Below, piece after piece: positions 50,160 to 55,051 of a stretch of 64,000 nt of DNA. The notes under the pieces are model-generated. The model worked only from the letters and a program-made list of their open reading frames with translations. It ran no database searches and was not told where the DNA came from. The DNA is from Loktanella sp. SALINAS62 (GTDB taxonomy: Bacteria > Pseudomonadota > Alphaproteobacteria > Rhodobacterales > Rhodobacteraceae): assembly GCF_018263905.1 (NCBI RefSeq), contig NZ_JAAFZU010000001.1, positions 1 through 64,000 on the forward strand, read 5' to 3'. How positions within the stretch are numbered: position 1 is the first letter of the stretch; each line of letters starts with the position of its first letter. A program made the translations under genes and the position numbers.

Positions 50160-50174
50160 GTGGTGCCCCCGGCC
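50160..50174 (+). repeat. Left attachment site (attL core)
   Basis: GTGGTGCCCCCGGCC is an exact copy of the 3' end of the tRNA-Leu gene at 54965-54979, left behind where the element inserted. Outside it is the chromosomal flank that originally followed the tRNA. Confidence 0.85.
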
Positions 50175-50225
50175 AGCATCTAAGCCCTATATCTTGATGC
50201 ACCACCGCGACCGCGCACCCCTTGT

Positions 50226-50242
50226 TTTTAAAGCTTTTAAAG
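50226..50242 (+). repeat. Tandem TTTTAAAG repeat near the left end
   Basis: TTTTAAAG occurs twice with one base between (50226-50233, 50235-50242), about 80 bases before the integrase. It could be a host-factor, excisionase or promoter site. The role is unproven. Confidence 0.35.
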
Positions 50243-50293
50243 TCACGCGCTGTATCAAGCCACTTCACAATGCCCCACGGCATACCATATATT

Positions 50294-50320
50294 GAGGGGG
50301 ACACAGAGGGGGACTGAAAA
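50294..50320 (+). repeat. Left copy of a 27-bp end motif
   Basis: The motif holds two GGGGGAC blocks and ends TGAAAA directly before the integrase ATG, so it also provides the ribosome-binding site. 23 of 27 bases match the motif at 54889-54915 near the other end. It is a candidate integrase arm-type binding site. Confidence 0.5.
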
Positions 50321-51526
50321 ATGCGCCTTGCGACGAATCGGCTTACCGCATCCGGCATCAAGTCCGCCCCTGTCGGCAAACATGCGGACGGCGCGGGCCT
50401 GTGGCTGCACAAACGCGACGACGGCGGCGCACAGTGGGTCTTGCGTGTCACAACGCACGGGCGGCGTCGAGAGATGGGCCTAGGGGCCTTCCCTGCCGTG
50501 TCACTGAAAGCAGCGCGCGAATCGGCAGAGGCTGCGCGGGCCGTCGCGCGGCAGGGTCTGGACCCAATTAAGGAACGCGAACGCCAGCGGCGGGCGGCGG
50601 CGCGCAATATCCACATGCTGTCCGATATCGCGCTGGACGCCTTCGAAAGCCGCAAGGCCGAACTGAAAGGCGACGGCACGGCAGGCCGCTGGTTCTCACC
50701 GCTTGCACTGCACGTCCTGCCAAAGCTGGGCCGCGTTCCGGTCGCTGATATCGACCAGACGGATATCCGCGACACGCTTGCCCCTATCTGGCACACGAAA
50801 GCCGAAACGGCCCGCAAGGCAATGAACCGTCTGGGCATCGTCCTGCGTCACGCGGCAGCGCTGGGCCTCGATGTGGACTTGCAAGCGACCGACAAGGCCA
50901 AGGCCCTATTGGGCAAGCAACGCCATACGGTCACTAACGTCCCCGCGATGAACTGGCGCGACGTGCCAGCCTTCTATCAATCGTTGGGCGGCAGCATCAC
51001 CGAACTGGCCCTGCGGTTGCTTATCCTGACAGCGGTGCGGTCCGGCCCGCTGCGCATGATGCACGTTGACCAGATCGACGGCGATATCTGGACCATCCCC
51101 GCAGCAGCCATGAAAGGCCGTCTGGGGGCCACGTCCGACTTTCGGGTGCCGCTGTCGGCAGAAGCCCAGCGCGTGATAGCAGAGGCCCGCAAATTCGCCC
51201 GTGACGGGTTCCTGTTTCCGGGGGCCAAGCGCGGCGTCATATCCGACATGACCATGACGGCGCTGATGGATCGGCGCGGCCTGTCCGAACGTCCCCACGG
51301 GTTCCGGTCGTCATTCCGCGACTGGACGGCAGAGGCGACACAGACGCCGCACGACGTTGCCGAAACCTGTCTGGGCCATACCACGGGCGGCACGGTCGAA
51401 CGCGCCTACCGCCGTACGGACTTTCTGGAGCAACGGCGGGCGCTGATGGAGCGGTGGGGACAGCTGAATTGCTACCGAAATAATGAAAACGTGCAAACGC
51501 TATCAATATGCAAAATGGGTGATTAA
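50321..51526 (+). CDS. Tyrosine recombinase (integrase) with DUF4102-like arm domain
   Basis: The 401-residue protein has an N-terminal arm-binding domain (DGAGLWLHKRDDGGAQWVL, residues 23-41, then REMGLGAFPAVSLKAARE), a core-binding domain and a catalytic domain with the full set Arg240, Lys265, His326-x-x-Arg329, His353 and nucleophile Tyr363. All expected residues are present, so it should be active. This is the P4-like class that integrates at tRNA genes, which fits the tRNA-Leu site. Its 3' end overlaps the next gene by 44 bases. The last 20 residues (NCYRNN onwards) are unusual and may have changed by fusion with AT-rich DNA. Confidence 0.93.
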   Translation: MRLATNRLTASGIKSAPVGKHADGAGLWLHKRDDGGAQWVLRVTTHGRRREMGLGAFPAVSLKAARESAEAARAVARQGLDPIKERERQRRAAARNIHMLSDIALDAFESRKAELKGDGTAGRWFSPLALHVLPKLGRVPVADIDQTDIRDTLAPIWHTKAETARKAMNRLGIVLRHAAALGLDVDLQATDKAKALLGKQRHTVTNVPAMNWRDVPAFYQSLGGSITELALRLLILTAVRSGPLRMMHVDQIDGDIWTIPAAAMKGRLGATSDFRVPLSAEAQRVIAEARKFARDGFLFPGAKRGVISDMTMTALMDRRGLSERPHGFRSSFRDWTAEATQTPHDVAETCLGHTTGGTVERAYRRTDFLEQRRALMERWGQLNCYRNNENVQTLSICKMGD

Positions 51527-52193
51527 TTTGATACGAGCAGAGCTAATTAACGACCCTGTCACTGGCTGTATTGAACTTCTTGAGGGCATGACGCCCATTG
51601 GAACTTCCAATTATTCTGCAATAAAAGGTTTAGTATCGACTAAACTTTTTCTGAATAAATTTCGGGGAATAGAATTAGTCGCTGACAACAACACATCAGT
51701 AGGGAGCTATATTTCCATATCGGACGAAGCTGCGGAAATTCTCATAGATTACTCAGAAAAATCAAGGGTAATGACAGAATTTACTACGGTCATTGTCGCC
51801 ATAAACATATCTGGAGGTCGACCACTACCAAAACAGTTACGCGAATGGGCTTCGAAAAGAATAGTTTATTGGTTTACTGGCATGAAAAAGCCACCATCAA
51901 TAAAGTCTTTTCCAAAGGATTTCTACCGTCGATATACCATCTACTTAGCGATACATGTAGTTGCAGATATCTACTCTTTACCTATTTCGCGTAACGATGG
52001 GTCTCCAGAGCATAGTGCCTGCGATGTTGTTTCAGATGCGCTTGATAAGATGGGGTTACAGTACTCATATTCGAGACTCCGCGACTGGTGCACACACTCG
52101 GATCACAAACTTTTTCGAGATTATTGTAGCGATATGATTGACTTTGTGGCTGAAGGCGACCCTGACGCACTAAAGACATTCCGGAGCCTGTAG
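51483..52193 (+). CDS. AT-rich cargo gene of unknown function
   Basis: I do not recognise this 236-residue protein. Base composition differs sharply from its surroundings: 69 G/C in 180 bases counted at 51541-51720. It has no signal peptide or clear membrane helix. Notable parts are GGRPLPKQLREW (about 118-129), KDFYRRYTIYLAIHVVADI (about 144-162), SRNDGSPEHSACDVVSDALDKMGL (about 167-190) and SRLRDWCTHSDH. Related-looking proteins lie beside integrases in other alphaproteobacterial elements, from memory only. The ATG at 51483 overlaps the integrase; a TTG at 51528 just after the integrase stop is an alternative. It could be a defence, immunity or regulatory cargo. Confidence 0.7.
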   Translation: MKTCKRYQYAKWVINLIRAELINDPVTGCIELLEGMTPIGTSNYSAIKGLVSTKLFLNKFRGIELVADNNTSVGSYISISDEAAEILIDYSEKSRVMTEFTTVIVAINISGGRPLPKQLREWASKRIVYWFTGMKKPPSIKSFPKDFYRRYTIYLAIHVVADIYSLPISRNDGSPEHSACDVVSDALDKMGLQYSYSRLRDWCTHSDHKLFRDYCSDMIDFVAEGDPDALKTFRSL

Positions 52194-52281
52194 CGTTCGG
52201 GGTGTTGAAAACATCATCCCGTTCGCGCAATGAGTTTCGATGGGGTACCTTGGCGCATAGAAGTTGACCAAGGAACATACC

Positions 52282-52452
52282 GTGCGATTACTTTCTTTCC
52301 CCGATCTACAAGCCAAACTTGGCGGACGAAGCCGCAGCTCGCTTTATCGCGACATCGCAATAGGGCGATTGCCCCAGCCTATCAAATTTGGATCGCGCCT
52401 CTACTGGAACGAAGCCGATATCGACGCGGCAATTCAGAGCATCGCGGGGTAA
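52282..52452 (+). CDS. AlpA-like excisionase/transcription activator
   Basis: The 56-residue protein (RLLSFPDLQAKLGGRSRSSLYRD, then LPQPIKFGSRLYWNEADIDAAI) has the MerR-type helix-turn-helix of AlpA/excisionase proteins. Such proteins turn on excision or integrase expression in P4-like elements. AAGGA is placed before the GTG at 52282. A TTG six codons upstream could extend it. A hairpin follows the stop codon at once. Confidence 0.85.
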   Translation: MRLLSFPDLQAKLGGRSRSSLYRDIAIGRLPQPIKFGSRLYWNEADIDAAIQSIAG

Positions 52453-52487
52453 GACCCGCCCCGCTGTGCAGGCGCACGGGCGGGGTC
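52453..52487 (+). terminator. Terminator-like hairpin after the AlpA gene
   Basis: GACCCGCCC (52453-52461) pairs with GGGCGGGGTC (52478-52487) with one bulged base, starting at the stop codon. There is no long T-run, so it may be a pause or attenuator. Confidence 0.5.
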
Positions 52488-52560
52488 GGGAATAATCCGT
52501 GGAAAGATTACCGACACCATACGCCCAGCGCCTTTCGTAAACAATCCGAAAGGACATCCA

Positions 52561-52866
52561 ATGGCTAGATGCCAATGGGGCGATGCCCCTTACACTATCG
52601 TCAACCCCGATGGGGCCGTTTCATACATCACCGTCAAAGGCCGCGACCGTTGGGCGCTGGGCTACTTGCGCGATGCAGGCGCGAGGGGATGCACGCCAAT
52701 CGACAACCCCGCCCCGCGTTGGTCGGCTTACGTGTTCAACCTGCGTGGCATGGGTGTGCAGATCGACACCATCCACGAACCGCACGGCGGCGATTTTAGC
52801 GGATTGCACGGGCGCTATGTCCTGCGGTCGCGCGTCCTGTGCGGACACGTGGTGGCCGCGCAATGA
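52561..52866 (+). CDS. Winged-helix-type small protein
   Basis: The 101-residue protein contains GRDRWALGYLRDAGARGCTPIDNPAPRWSAYVFNLRGMGVQIDT. This strongly resembles small winged-helix-domain proteins found in alphaproteobacterial prophage-like elements, usually ending in EPHGGDF(S/A)GxHxRYVL as here. It probably binds DNA and regulates the element. ATG follows GAAAGGA. Its stop overlaps the next start (ATGA), beginning a run of four coupled small genes. Confidence 0.75.
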   Translation: MARCQWGDAPYTIVNPDGAVSYITVKGRDRWALGYLRDAGARGCTPIDNPAPRWSAYVFNLRGMGVQIDTIHEPHGGDFSGLHGRYVLRSRVLCGHVVAAQ

Positions 52867-52964
52867 CCGCCGCCAGCATCCGCCGCCTGTGCCGCCGCTA
52901 TGGCCTGACGCCTTCACAAGCCCGCCTTGTCGCGGCCCTGCACTATGGGGGCGAACATGACTGA
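52863..52964 (+). CDS. Predicted 33-residue peptide
   Basis: A short frame starts in the ATGA overlap with the preceding stop and encodes MTAASIRRLCRRYGLTPSQ onwards, 33 residues, ending seven bases into the next gene. Overlaps on both sides and the high basic content suggest a real coupled small gene. It has no recognised family. Confidence 0.5.
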   Translation: MTAASIRRLCRRYGLTPSQARLVAALHYGGEHD

Positions 52965-53127
52965 CCTTCACACGCGCCTTATCCGGCATAATGGAACGTG
53001 GCACATCATGGCCCGCAAGGTCGCACACGGCACCGCACAGGCCGCGTGGATCGACCTGGGGGGCTGCGGTTGCCCTGTGATTGCCCTGCGACTTTTGGTC
53101 GGCACAGCCTGTGGGGACAAACGCTGA
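52957..53127 (+). CDS. Predicted 56-residue protein
   Basis: The frame begins MTDLHTRLIRHNGTWHIMAR and includes GGCGCPVIALRLL. It overlaps the end of the 33-residue frame by eight bases and shares one base (TGATG) with the next gene. The tight coupling on both sides is the main support. The function is unknown. Confidence 0.5.
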   Translation: MTDLHTRLIRHNGTWHIMARKVAHGTAQAAWIDLGGCGCPVIALRLLVGTACGDKR

Positions 53128-53567
53128 TGGCAGGCAAGCGATACAAATACAACAAAAGGGGGGTTGGGCGTTTCGTCCAGCTTCCCGAATGGGTGCAGGC
53201 GACACAGGCATGGGCCACCCTGCCCCCCGGCCCGCGCGCGCTTTACATCGAATTGAAACGCCGCTTCAACGGCACGAACAACGGCAGCATCTACCTAAGC
53301 CACCGGGACGCGGCTACGGCGCTGGCGGTGCACCGCAACACCGTAGGGCCGTGGTTTAGAATACTTGAGGAACGCGGGTTCATTTACCTGACCCAAGCCC
53401 CCCATCTTGGCCCGTCGGGCATCGGCAAGGCATCGGTCTGGGCCTTGGCAGAGGAACCGACACCGGACGGCAAGCCCGCCAGAAAAACATTCATCAAATT
53501 CAAAAGCCCCGCACAAAATCCGTGCATGGCCGTCACAGTGAGTGTGACGGATGTTAACAAATGTTAA
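53127..53567 (+). CDS. Winged helix-turn-helix protein of the element
   Basis: The 146-residue protein has an N-terminal FVQLPEWVQATQAWATLPPGPRALYIELKRRFNG region followed by a winged helix-turn-helix (ISLSHRDAATALAVHRNT-like at about 58-78, read IYLSHRDAATALAVHRNT) and GFIYLTQAPHLGPSGIGKAS. It resembles small proteins of alphaproteobacterial integrative elements that are sometimes labelled replication or helix-turn-helix proteins. A role in element replication or control is plausible. Its stop overlaps the GTTAAC repeats that begin the non-coding stretch. Confidence 0.72.
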   Translation: MAGKRYKYNKRGVGRFVQLPEWVQATQAWATLPPGPRALYIELKRRFNGTNNGSIYLSHRDAATALAVHRNTVGPWFRILEERGFIYLTQAPHLGPSGIGKASVWALAEEPTPDGKPARKTFIKFKSPAQNPCMAVTVSVTDVNKC

Positions 53568-54134
53568 CCTTTGAAGGTGCAACCGTCCTGTATTTTGTGA
53601 CGCCGCGCCCCGTTTTGTGGAAAGCGGCGGCACAGAAAACAGGACATATCTACATCAAGCCATAGGCACACGGTTTGACAGAGGTAGCGGGTTCGGTGTC
53701 CTGACCATGCATTACGGCATAGGGGGGGATCGAAAGTTGCCCGATATCCCAACGCCAAACCGTTCATCCCGCACGGCGCGAACGCTAACACAGTTTTTGG
53801 CTGGGAATGTGACCGGACACGCGCGCGCGTGCGAGGGGATGAAAACAAACAGTTAGCAGATCCAGCGACGGCGCGACGGAGTAAAGGCCGAGGGGTCGAC
53901 AGCCTATCGCAAACCTCACCCTTGTTTCGTTTGCAGCCTGATTTGAATACGAACGCGGTGCGGGTGCCAAATCATTCTAAGCGAAAATTGAATGGCGCTC
54001 GAAGCCGAAGCTGAGGAAACCCTAGGACGGTCTGTAAGGTCACTTTCCCGCCACTATGTCGCCCATCTGTTTGAATAACCATAAGTTGTGCTGAGGCAGC
54101 TTAGCCGGTTATCAAACCTAAGGAATTCTGAACC
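53568..54134. other. 567-base non-coding stretch in the element
   Basis: No convincing gene was found here; the open frames lack ribosome-binding sites or family features. GTTAAC occurs twice (53552-53567) at its left edge. A 14-base perfect palindrome of alternating purine and pyrimidine, CACGCGCGCGCGTG, lies at 53818-53831, followed by GAGGGGATGAAAAC, which resembles part of the 27-bp end motif. It could hold an origin or a regulatory site. Confidence 0.45.
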
Positions 54135-54554
54135 ATGTCCAATCTTTTTTCCGTCGCGGCTCTCGCGGTTTCGGCCTTAACGCTAGTCGCATGCGCCCAA
54201 ACCGATATTCAGCCTTTGTCAGCAAGCTCATTCAAAGTCGCAACAACTGCTGCGCCTGCATGCGGAAGAAGTGGGGCAAGAAAAGTGGCGAACCAAGCGG
54301 CGGCGGTCGAGGTAATTAACCGTGGAGGCGACAAGTTCATCATTGTTGGTGACCAGACAGGTAGCCGGGTCACTGGCATGGGATACAATCAATATACTGG
54401 ATTCCAACCTTACAATTCGAACGAACAAGACTTGGTTGTGCAGATGATGGCGCCCGGCCAACCCGGCTTCGACCAAGCTCTTTCCGCACGGTCATTGTTG
54501 GGCAGTGATTGGCAAAACGTAGTCGCTTCCGGCACGCCTGCAACTTGCACGTAG
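54135..54554 (+). CDS. Small lipoprotein of unknown function
   Basis: The 139-residue protein has a lipoprotein signal with LVAC at about residue 20. The mature part has no recognised domain and contains the motif NRGGDKFIIVGDQTGSRV and a Gln/Asn-rich central part (GYNQYTGFQPYNSNEQD). AAGGA lies about nine bases before the ATG. A strong hairpin follows the gene. As cargo of a mobile element it could alter the envelope, for example by phage exclusion, but nothing in the sequence proves it. Confidence 0.65.
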   Translation: MSNLFSVAALAVSALTLVACAQTDIQPLSASSFKVATTAAPACGRSGARKVANQAAAVEVINRGGDKFIIVGDQTGSRVTGMGYNQYTGFQPYNSNEQDLVVQMMAPGQPGFDQALSARSLLGSDWQNVVASGTPATCT

Positions 54555-54573
54555 TAAACCCGCTGTATGATTT

Positions 54574-54606
54574 GGCGACGACCCTGCGGCTTGACGGGTT
54601 GTCGCC
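54574..54606 (+). terminator. Hairpin terminator after the lipoprotein gene
   Basis: GGCGACGACCC pairs with GGGTTGTCGCC over 11 bp (one G-U pair) with an 11-base loop, 20 bases after the lipoprotein stop. Confidence 0.65.
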
Positions 54607-54964
54607 ATGTTGTATCCACCCACCACGGTTGAAAAAAGATTTACCACTAAGCCGAAATCCCTGAACTGTGGATGCGGCTTTTTCGGGTCTGGTATCGGTC
54701 CCGAACAGATCGGCGGCAGAGTTTCAAACCGCCCCCCGCAAGGCGCTTTAAGGGGCCGCCCGTTTGCCGCCACCCTTGCCCATCATGCGTTTGCGATGAA
54801 CTTGAGGCGCAGGCGCTGGGCCCGACGATGAAATGGCTGCGGATGTTCAAATAAAATAACCGCAGAAAACGCAGCCACCAAACGCCGCGAGGGGGACGAA
54901 AAGGGGGATTGAAAACAACCCAGCTCTATTATGTTATTGATTTCAAGGCATAAAAAGATTTTAA
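54607..54964. other. Right-end non-coding region of the element
   Basis: About 360 bases with no supported gene. It holds the right copy of the 27-bp end motif and ends AAGATTTTAA against the tRNA. An 11-base sequence AGATTTTAAGT at 54956-54966 also occurs in the tRNA anticodon arm at 55011-55021. Confidence 0.45.
54889..54915 (+). repeat. Right copy of the 27-bp end motif
   Basis: Matches the motif before the integrase at 23 of 27 positions (two GGGGGA blocks, TGAAAA end) but no integrase frame follows it. It could be an integrase arm-type site or a remnant of the start of an older integrase. Confidence 0.5.
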
Positions 54965-54979
54965 GTGGTGCCCCCGGCC
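54965..54979 (+). repeat. Right attachment site (attR core)
   Basis: GTGGTGCCCCCGGCC covers the encoded CCA end and acceptor stem of the tRNA-Leu gene and is identical to 50160-50174. The tRNA stays complete after integration. Confidence 0.85.
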
Positions 54980-55051
54980 GGATTCGAACCGGCACGATCC
55001 AAAGATCAGGAGATTTTAAGTCTCCGGTGTCTACCATTCCACCACGGGGGC
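54966..55051 (-). tRNA. tRNA-Leu (anticodon UAA)
   Basis: The cloverleaf reads from GCCCCCGTGGTGGAATGG (5') through an anticodon stem GGAGA/TCTCC with loop CTTAAAA (anticodon at 55016-55018), a long variable arm typical of leucine tRNA, and the GGTTCGAATCC T-arm to an encoded CCA. It is the integration target of the adjacent element. Confidence 0.95.

Follow-up and report, generated by a model that had tools for sequence, protein, structure and literature searches.

The 64,000-nucleotide stretch of Loktanella sp. SALINAS62 analysed here (hereafter the window) carries a compact, satellite-like integrative element of 4.8 kb, inserted at tRNA-Leu(UAA). The element belongs to a widespread, seemingly undescribed family of tiny elements that are real and mobile. 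The hallmark gene of this family, orf7, probably encodes a replication initiator, and the conserved noncoding site that follows it is a probable replication origin. We think it reasonably probable that such elements encode their own integration and their own replication after excision, and depend on a helper, most likely a phage, for transfer.

The element is bounded by two exact copies of the 15-mer GTGGTGCCCCCGGCC, the 3' end of tRNA-Leu(UAA), at 50160-50174 and 54965-54979. This tRNA was the only one that ARAGORN found in the window. When its 3' half (50 nt) was compared with the 10 kb to the left of the tRNA, the longest exact match was 15 nt, whereas none of the 48 overlapping control stretches of 10 kb from the window gave, on either strand, a match of more than 13 nt; the repeat at both ends, claimed in an earlier note on this DNA, is thus borne out. 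All assigned genes between the repeats (int, orf2, alpA, a winged-helix gene, orf5, orf6, orf7 and a putative lipoprotein gene; Table 1) point towards the tRNA. The integrase has three Pfam domains above cut-off (Arm-DNA-bind_3, Phage_int_M and Phage_integrase), and the R, K, HxxR, H and Y residues that we take to be its catalytic motif are legible in the translation, as expected of the complete tyrosine recombinase described before. Likewise, the proposed AlpA-like protein passed the Phage_AlpA cut-off, albeit narrowly, and four small genes between 52561 and 53567 overlap by 4, 8 and 1 nt, forming the coupled run of tiny genes that had been noticed. The earlier note had also seen no structural, conjugation or named replication gene. 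No structural or conjugation family was indeed found among nine open reading frames (ORFs) scanned against Pfam and PHROGs, but the last part of this claim is not supported, orf7 being a probable replication gene.

Relatives of orf7 were sought in bacteria and archaea in a scan of one genome per species, which gave 112; the best 80 were kept, including loci at contig ends, and all counts given below out of 80 or 44 rest on these 80. Some of them (e.g. L125, L024) come from the same genomes as the loci of our genome comparisons (G numbers) and are not independent of those. Judged from record titles, nearly all belong to Rhodobacterales, with one short contig of a 'Flavobacteriia' metagenome-assembled genome as the odd one. 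At 44 of the 80 loci the element could be delimited, with attL before the integrase and attR in a tRNA gene behind orf7. These delimited elements are 3.8-10.9 kb long, 10 of them shorter than 4.5 kb, and occupy 15 isoacceptors of Leu, Thr, Ser, Phe, Arg, Glu and Ala tRNAs. The distance from attL to the start of the integrase match is 134-194 nt in all 44 (161 nt in the window). Searches by tblastn with window proteins recognised alpA in 30 of these 44 elements; for the winged-helix gene, orf6 and orf5 the counts were 20, 18 and 14, respectively. These parts are thus more variable than int and orf7.

Genome comparisons gave a similar gene order. Integrase relatives, most of them distant, were present in 35 of 61 genomes at E<=0.001, and the best near-full-length matches outside the window were 93, 86, 76, 67, 65 and 64% identical. 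In 8 of the 13 neighbourhoods of the first set, the integrase is flanked by a tRNA on one side and by a copy of that tRNA's 3' end on the other. Among 20 neighbourhoods centred on orf7, int lay upstream of orf7 on the same strand in 18, and the tRNA repeat was seen in 9. Among 295 family genomes, orf7 was detected in 41 at E<=0.001 and in 21 at E<=1e-15; a class-level sample yielded 3 of 385 at the latter threshold (own genome included in both samples). One genome, G172, assembled as a single contig, holds three modules with int and orf7, alpA being recognised in two of them, and a fourth in which orf7 is cut and int was not found. In the damaged copy beside the three modules (L060), orf7 breaks off after about 66 aligned residues and is separated from orf5 by about 3.6 kb. 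A larger relative at tRNA-Ser of G006, from the same genus as the window, encodes DUF7146/Toprim and DUF3987 proteins and no orf7. The wider group thus includes both a primase type and an orf7 type. The earlier note had proposed a search for the same gene order at tRNA-Leu sites of related genomes; both the order and the attachment geometry do recur among relatives. Its impression that such elements are little described in Roseobacter-type genomes also agrees with our literature search, which returned no description of such an element and no satellite family of Rhodobacterales, most subscription papers lying outside its coverage. In the part of its main text that was accessible, a paper on Rhodobacteraceae prophages (PMC8224337) does not use the word satellite; PMC12324425, as far as its accessible part goes, deals with a different element from an archaeal host.

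An exact empty site was identified for a sister element. This element is located at tRNA-Leu(CAG) in the genus mate G004, with an integrase 93% identical to that of the window, and in another genus mate, G005, which is about 95% identical there, the two flanks are joined, their alignments sharing exactly the 15-bp core. As for the window locus, its right flank (tRNA, Lrp, PutA) is kept at eight tRNA-Leu(UAA) loci (7 of 8 genus mates, G007 being left out). The left flank showed no synteny in the five genus mates compared, and its histidine kinase and 2-oxoglutarate (2OG) oxygenase had no close orthologue at the same place in the genomes searched. No genome joining both flanks was found. The unoccupied site that the earlier note had called for is therefore available for the sister element and not for the window locus. 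Nevertheless, the recurrence of attachment geometry and gene order, together with the exact empty site of the sister, upholds the view of an integrative element. Its small size, its lack of structural genes and a possible remnant of a distal gene (MGGxGSGR type, Table 1) might instead suggest a decayed, immobile prophage remnant. We consider this very unlikely, as the genes are open, their order recurs in many genera, attachment geometry is uniform in 44 elements, the sister element has its exact empty site, and closely related integrases are found at different tRNA genes.

Other elements were encountered at the same two tRNA genes. To the left of tRNA-Leu(UAA), GTGGACCTA repeats by the tRNA in three genus-mate loci (L091, L083 and L086), which suggests a different integrative element there. 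In L033 (G002:C10:350151-351296), a more distant integrase (43% identity) is preceded at short distance by a copy of the tRNA-Leu(CAG) 3' end, where G004 has the sister element; this is another element at that locus.

According to its structural model, orf7 is probably a winged-helix protein of the Rep/DnaD type and a likely replication initiator. The top eight matches of the model in the PDB were 4pql (twice), the Rep-DNA complex 5kbj (twice), 4pt7, 4pta and the DnaD N-terminal domain 2v79 (twice). By sequence, Pfam and PHROGs gave weak matches to replication-initiation and DnaD-like proteins, HTH_36 remaining below the Pfam cut-off. Viral fold matches (BFVD) were mostly unnamed or plain helix-turn-helix (HTH) proteins, with a few named replication initiator, replisome organizer or protein O. 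The entries 4pql, 5kbj, 4pt7 and 4pta, whose PDB titles read initiator or Rep, presumably represent RepA_N-type plasmid initiators. These are alike to orf7 in the predicted N-terminal winged-helix fold, whereas orf7 has no long C-terminal domain and is encoded within an integrative element. Initiators of the RepA_N type have their binding sites in or beside the rep gene, a further likeness to orf7 and its probable site.

A conserved noncoding site is situated directly 3' of orf7. It is composed of two 17-bp half-sites of the GTC-N11-GAC type, about 43 bp apart, and of CATATMTACATCTAGCCATAGG. With up to 4 edits allowed, 70 of the 80 loci contain the site, against 1 of 80 for the reversed-pattern control, and in 62 of these 70 it lies 470-540 nt after the start of the orf7 match. 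The motif occurs once in the window's own genome (<=3 mismatches). A scan of 394 family genomes met it at 15 places, spread over 13 genomes (<=1 mismatch; control 0), and 14 of these places adjoin orf7. The fifteenth (L180, G219:C1:1949280) is an exact site by tRNA-Thr and a downstream family gene, with no recognisable orf7 in the 3-kb locus, which perhaps uses another initiator. In the 61 of 80 loci that could be scored by script, a different operator, whose pattern was written after viewing the loci, accompanied recognition-helix class GRDT in 5 of 5 cases and was absent from the other 56 of 56. Judged from these sequences, recognition helix and operator appear to vary together. A conserved hairpin acting as RNA structure was rejected, since the inner A-tracts of the half-sites do not pair and Rfam gave no match above gathering score beyond the tRNA; for the same reasons we read the half-sites as two dyad binding sites. 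A T7-like phage promoter was weighed for the motif by eye only and dropped. The initiator-like fold of orf7 and the conserved site behind its gene together suggest that the element probably replicates itself after excision.

Exact site patterns had a sole match in IMG/VR, namely contig L191 (IMGVR_UViG_2524614806_000001). A distant integrase is followed there by an orf7 relative (39% identity), then by the site, behind which lies a portal gene (PF04860, E 9.3e-95). Inspection by eye also showed protease, capsid, terminase and tape-measure-like genes behind the site, int, orf7 and portal having been identified by tests. This means that the replication module is common to a prophage-like element and to the compact elements, and L191 may show the source of this module. 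On a Litoreibacter contig (L173), a distant orf7 relative (40%) precedes relatives of the L191 portal, protease and capsid; when the L191 portal, protease, capsid, terminase and tape-measure-like genes were used as queries on the oriented loci, L173 alone matched (by homology, with one query set). Among plasmid records, three matches (53, 38 and 33% identity) were obtained. Roseobacter prophages are reported to sit in tRNA genes as well, including those for Leu, Ser, Thr and Arg (PMC8224337, accessible part). The earlier idea of a satellite in need of a helper is plausible from gene content and from the orf7 and site shared with L191.

The position of the site in L191, between an early module and portal and capsid genes, would also suit a packaging (cos/pac) site for a helper terminase rather than an origin. 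Moreover, 12 of the 44 delimited elements carry behind orf7 a relative of either of two suspected packaging genes, one resembling DUF5681 just under the cut-off (26.9 vs 27.5 bits) and the other without family. We nevertheless regard a packaging site as unlikely, considering the initiator-like predicted fold of orf7, the recognition helix that varies together with the dyads, and the window stretch itself, for which blastn found no match in phage records. Alternatively, inverted half-sites beside a strongly conserved stretch recall the layout of an origin of conjugative transfer (oriT), and the place and orientation of the site relative to orf7 are fixed. The element would then be mobilizable by conjugation, its oriT being served in trans by the relaxase of a plasmid or an integrative and conjugative element. 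This seems rather improbable, because no relaxase or coupling protein was found among the nine ORFs (Pfam, PHROGs), the site adjoins an orf7 relative also in a prophage-like contig with a portal gene, and its near-constant spacing ties it to orf7.

The mechanism that we favour, replication from an own origin and transfer by a helper, might proceed as follows. Int would recombine the attachment site of the element with the 3' end of tRNA-Leu(UAA), the tRNA staying intact, and AlpA would turn on excision. After excision, orf7 would probably bind the pair of GTC-N11-GAC dyads that follow its gene and start replication there with helicase and primase of the host or helper. As no capsid or conjugation gene was found, a helper, most likely a phage, would have to be borrowed for transfer.

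Several observations weigh against this model. The fold match of orf7 is modest (4pql, best E 9.6e-4, is the sole one below 0.001, and TM-scores are about 0.4-0.6), and MarR-like regulator folds also occur among its PDB matches, ranking below Rep/DnaD. The sequence profile of orf7 retrieved HTH transcription regulators from the PDB instead (best E 3e-4), from which a purely regulatory role is possible. The site was not found in 10 of 80 loci (<=4 edits), its strict two-dyad pattern occurs in 27 of 70 loci only (shuffles 0 of 70), and the loci with the GRDT operator may all stem from one clade. No family of terminase small subunits, capsid-remodelling proteins or primases was found in the window element (Pfam, PHROGs). 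The AlpA-like gene before orf7 in L191 was seen by eye only, tblastn with window alpA giving no match. A scan of IMG/VR with the orf7 family profile confirmed 0 of 55 candidate stretches, but it was insensitive and missed L191 as well. Finally, no orf7 relatives were found in 50,697 phage records, giving no sign of packaged copies, and no helper of the window element was identified.

A more speculative extension, to which we give little credence, is that minimal self-replicating elements of Rhodobacterales spread in capsids, possibly including those of gene transfer agents (GTAs), for which this order is typical. GTA particles carry roughly 4-4.5 kb. The smallest members of the family are near this capacity, so some could travel whole without infectious phage; the window element is slightly too long, and members of up to 10.9 kb would not fit.

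No family at useful E was found for orf2 in Pfam, PHROG or PADLOC, and its model (pLDDT 69.7) had no PDB match at E<=0.001; a role as defence gene was rejected for want of any PADLOC, Pfam or PDB fold match. The protein belongs to an 11-member sequence cluster at the same position in relatives. Of the 40 relatives scored, 28 showed an overlap between the end of int and an ORF of 100 aa or more lying before alpA, and 3 had no ORF of 60 aa; the longest start was used, so the overlap may be overstated. The 38 int-overlapping proteins compared, some of them short and doubtful, fell into 20 sequence clusters.

Behind the conserved site lies a variable slot, in which the window carries the putative lipoprotein, with what we take to be a signal and lipobox in its sequence. 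Cargo annotation covered hand-picked proteins of relatives (9 + 10); the candidate ORFs of 120 aa or longer numbered 104, many of which are spurious. A protein of about 200 aa that starts with MGGxGSGR (e.g. L024:11251-11862, minus strand) was present in 16 of 44 delimited elements; it has cysteine pairs, appears zinc-finger-like by eye and matched no Pfam or PHROG family at useful E. An element at tRNA-Thr(CGT) encodes an MmeI-like type IIG restriction enzyme behind the site (L141:8697-11555). Small genes for secreted or lipoprotein-like products, as judged by eye, occupy the slot before attR in the window (54135-54554), L069, L070, L076 and L150, and are possibly surface phage-exclusion proteins.

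Table 1. Features of the element and its insertion site (window coordinates)
Feature	Position	Strand	Basis and remarks
attL, copy of tRNA-Leu(UAA) 3' end	50160..50174	+	exact 15-mer repeat; 15-bp core of the G004 sister element at the same place
candidate integrase arm-type site, left, two GGGGGAC heptamers	50294..50320	+	27-nt direct repeat, 85% identical to 54889-54915; putative function
int, tyrosine recombinase, 401 aa	50321..51526	+	Pfam PF13356, PF22022, PF00589 above cut-offs
orf2, 236 aa, lower G+C, overlaps int end by 44 nt	51483..52193	+	positional counterpart of PICMI gene iolg
alpA, AlpA/excisionase-type regulator, 56 aa	52282..52452	+	PF05930 22.7 bits vs cut-off 21; phrog_66 excisionase E 3.7e-5
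winged-helix protein, 101 aa	52561..52866	+	PF22324 HTH_91, E 2.9e-36; same place in part of relatives
orf5, 33 aa, start overlaps previous stop	52863..52964	+	recognised in part of the family
orf6, 56 aa	52957..53127	+	recognised in part of the family
orf7, probable replication initiator, 146 aa, family hallmark	53127..53567	+	model pLDDT 86.9; PDB fold matches; 112 relatives
dyad 1, GTC-N11-GAC	53585..53601	+	alignment A4, 33 sequences
dyad 2, degenerate here, GGC-N11-GAC	53629..53645	+	alignment A4, 33 sequences
conserved noncoding motif CATATCTACATCAAGCCATAGG	53645..53666	+	with dyads, probable replication origin
putative lipoprotein, 139 aa, variable cargo slot	54135..54554	+	no useful Pfam/PHROGs match
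possible remnant of MGGxGSGR-type distal gene of other members	54795..54851	+	19-residue tblastn match, 53%, E 0.007; weak
candidate integrase arm-type site, right	54889..54915	+	partner of 50294-50320; putative function
attR core, overlaps 3' end of intact tRNA	54965..54979	+	repeat; ARAGORN
tRNA-Leu(UAA), intact	54966..55051	-	ARAGORN, tRNA-Leu(taa); Rfam RF00005

To our knowledge, the well-studied phage satellites stem from few bacterial groups. The present family would add a major marine order to them, in a pared-down form in which an initiator and an origin replace the satellite primase. Some of its members also bring along cargo genes, for instance for a restriction enzyme or for secreted products. 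Orf7 and the site can serve as markers for finding such elements, and the question of what moves elements so small in roseobacters has become testable by experiment.

Among known systems, P4-like satellites likewise integrate into tRNA genes, use an AlpA/Vis-type excision protein and have a similar integrase domain layout. They are set apart by the primase-helicase, a family not found among the nine ORFs scanned here (Pfam, PHROGs). Phage-inducible chromosomal islands (PICIs) of Gram-negative bacteria, in the accessible part of their description (PMC6092414), share with the window element an integrase, AlpA and a replication module, the last being inferred here from the predicted fold; PICIs are devoid of structural and lytic genes, and none were found in the window element. 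The attachment sites of such PICIs are not known to be used by prophages; in roseobacters, prophages are on record in tRNA genes for Leu, Ser, Thr and Arg, as mentioned above. Such PICIs typically measure about 12-15 kb and contain a pri-rep gene, whereas the window element has 4.8 kb and no primase, and the 44 delimited members are all smaller as well.

A close parallel is found in the phage-inducible chromosomal minimalist islands (PICMIs) of Vibrionaceae, as far as the accessible part of PMC10803314 describes them. Both are very small, reside in marine hosts and are without capsid-remodelling genes. The order of genes is also akin: an integrase, often a gene overlapping int, alpA, often a small gene, and a replication gene. 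Integrase and AlpA, which a PICMI must have, were recognised in the window element by Pfam and PHROGs, and the overlap of orf2 with the int end before alpA corresponds to a common, not universal, PICMI feature. In PICMIs the int-overlapping genes, iolg among them, comprise 13 families, and iolg is needed for excision in PICMI115. PICMIs adjoin fis, in contrast to the insertion at tRNA-Leu(UAA), and their transfer by phage has been demonstrated, whereas for the present family it is a hypothesis. Lacking both the primase and the fis site, the window element is not a PICMI: in place of the DUF3987/DUF5906 primase that defines those islands, for which no Pfam match was obtained in the nine window ORFs, it has an initiator-like winged-helix protein and an origin-like site.

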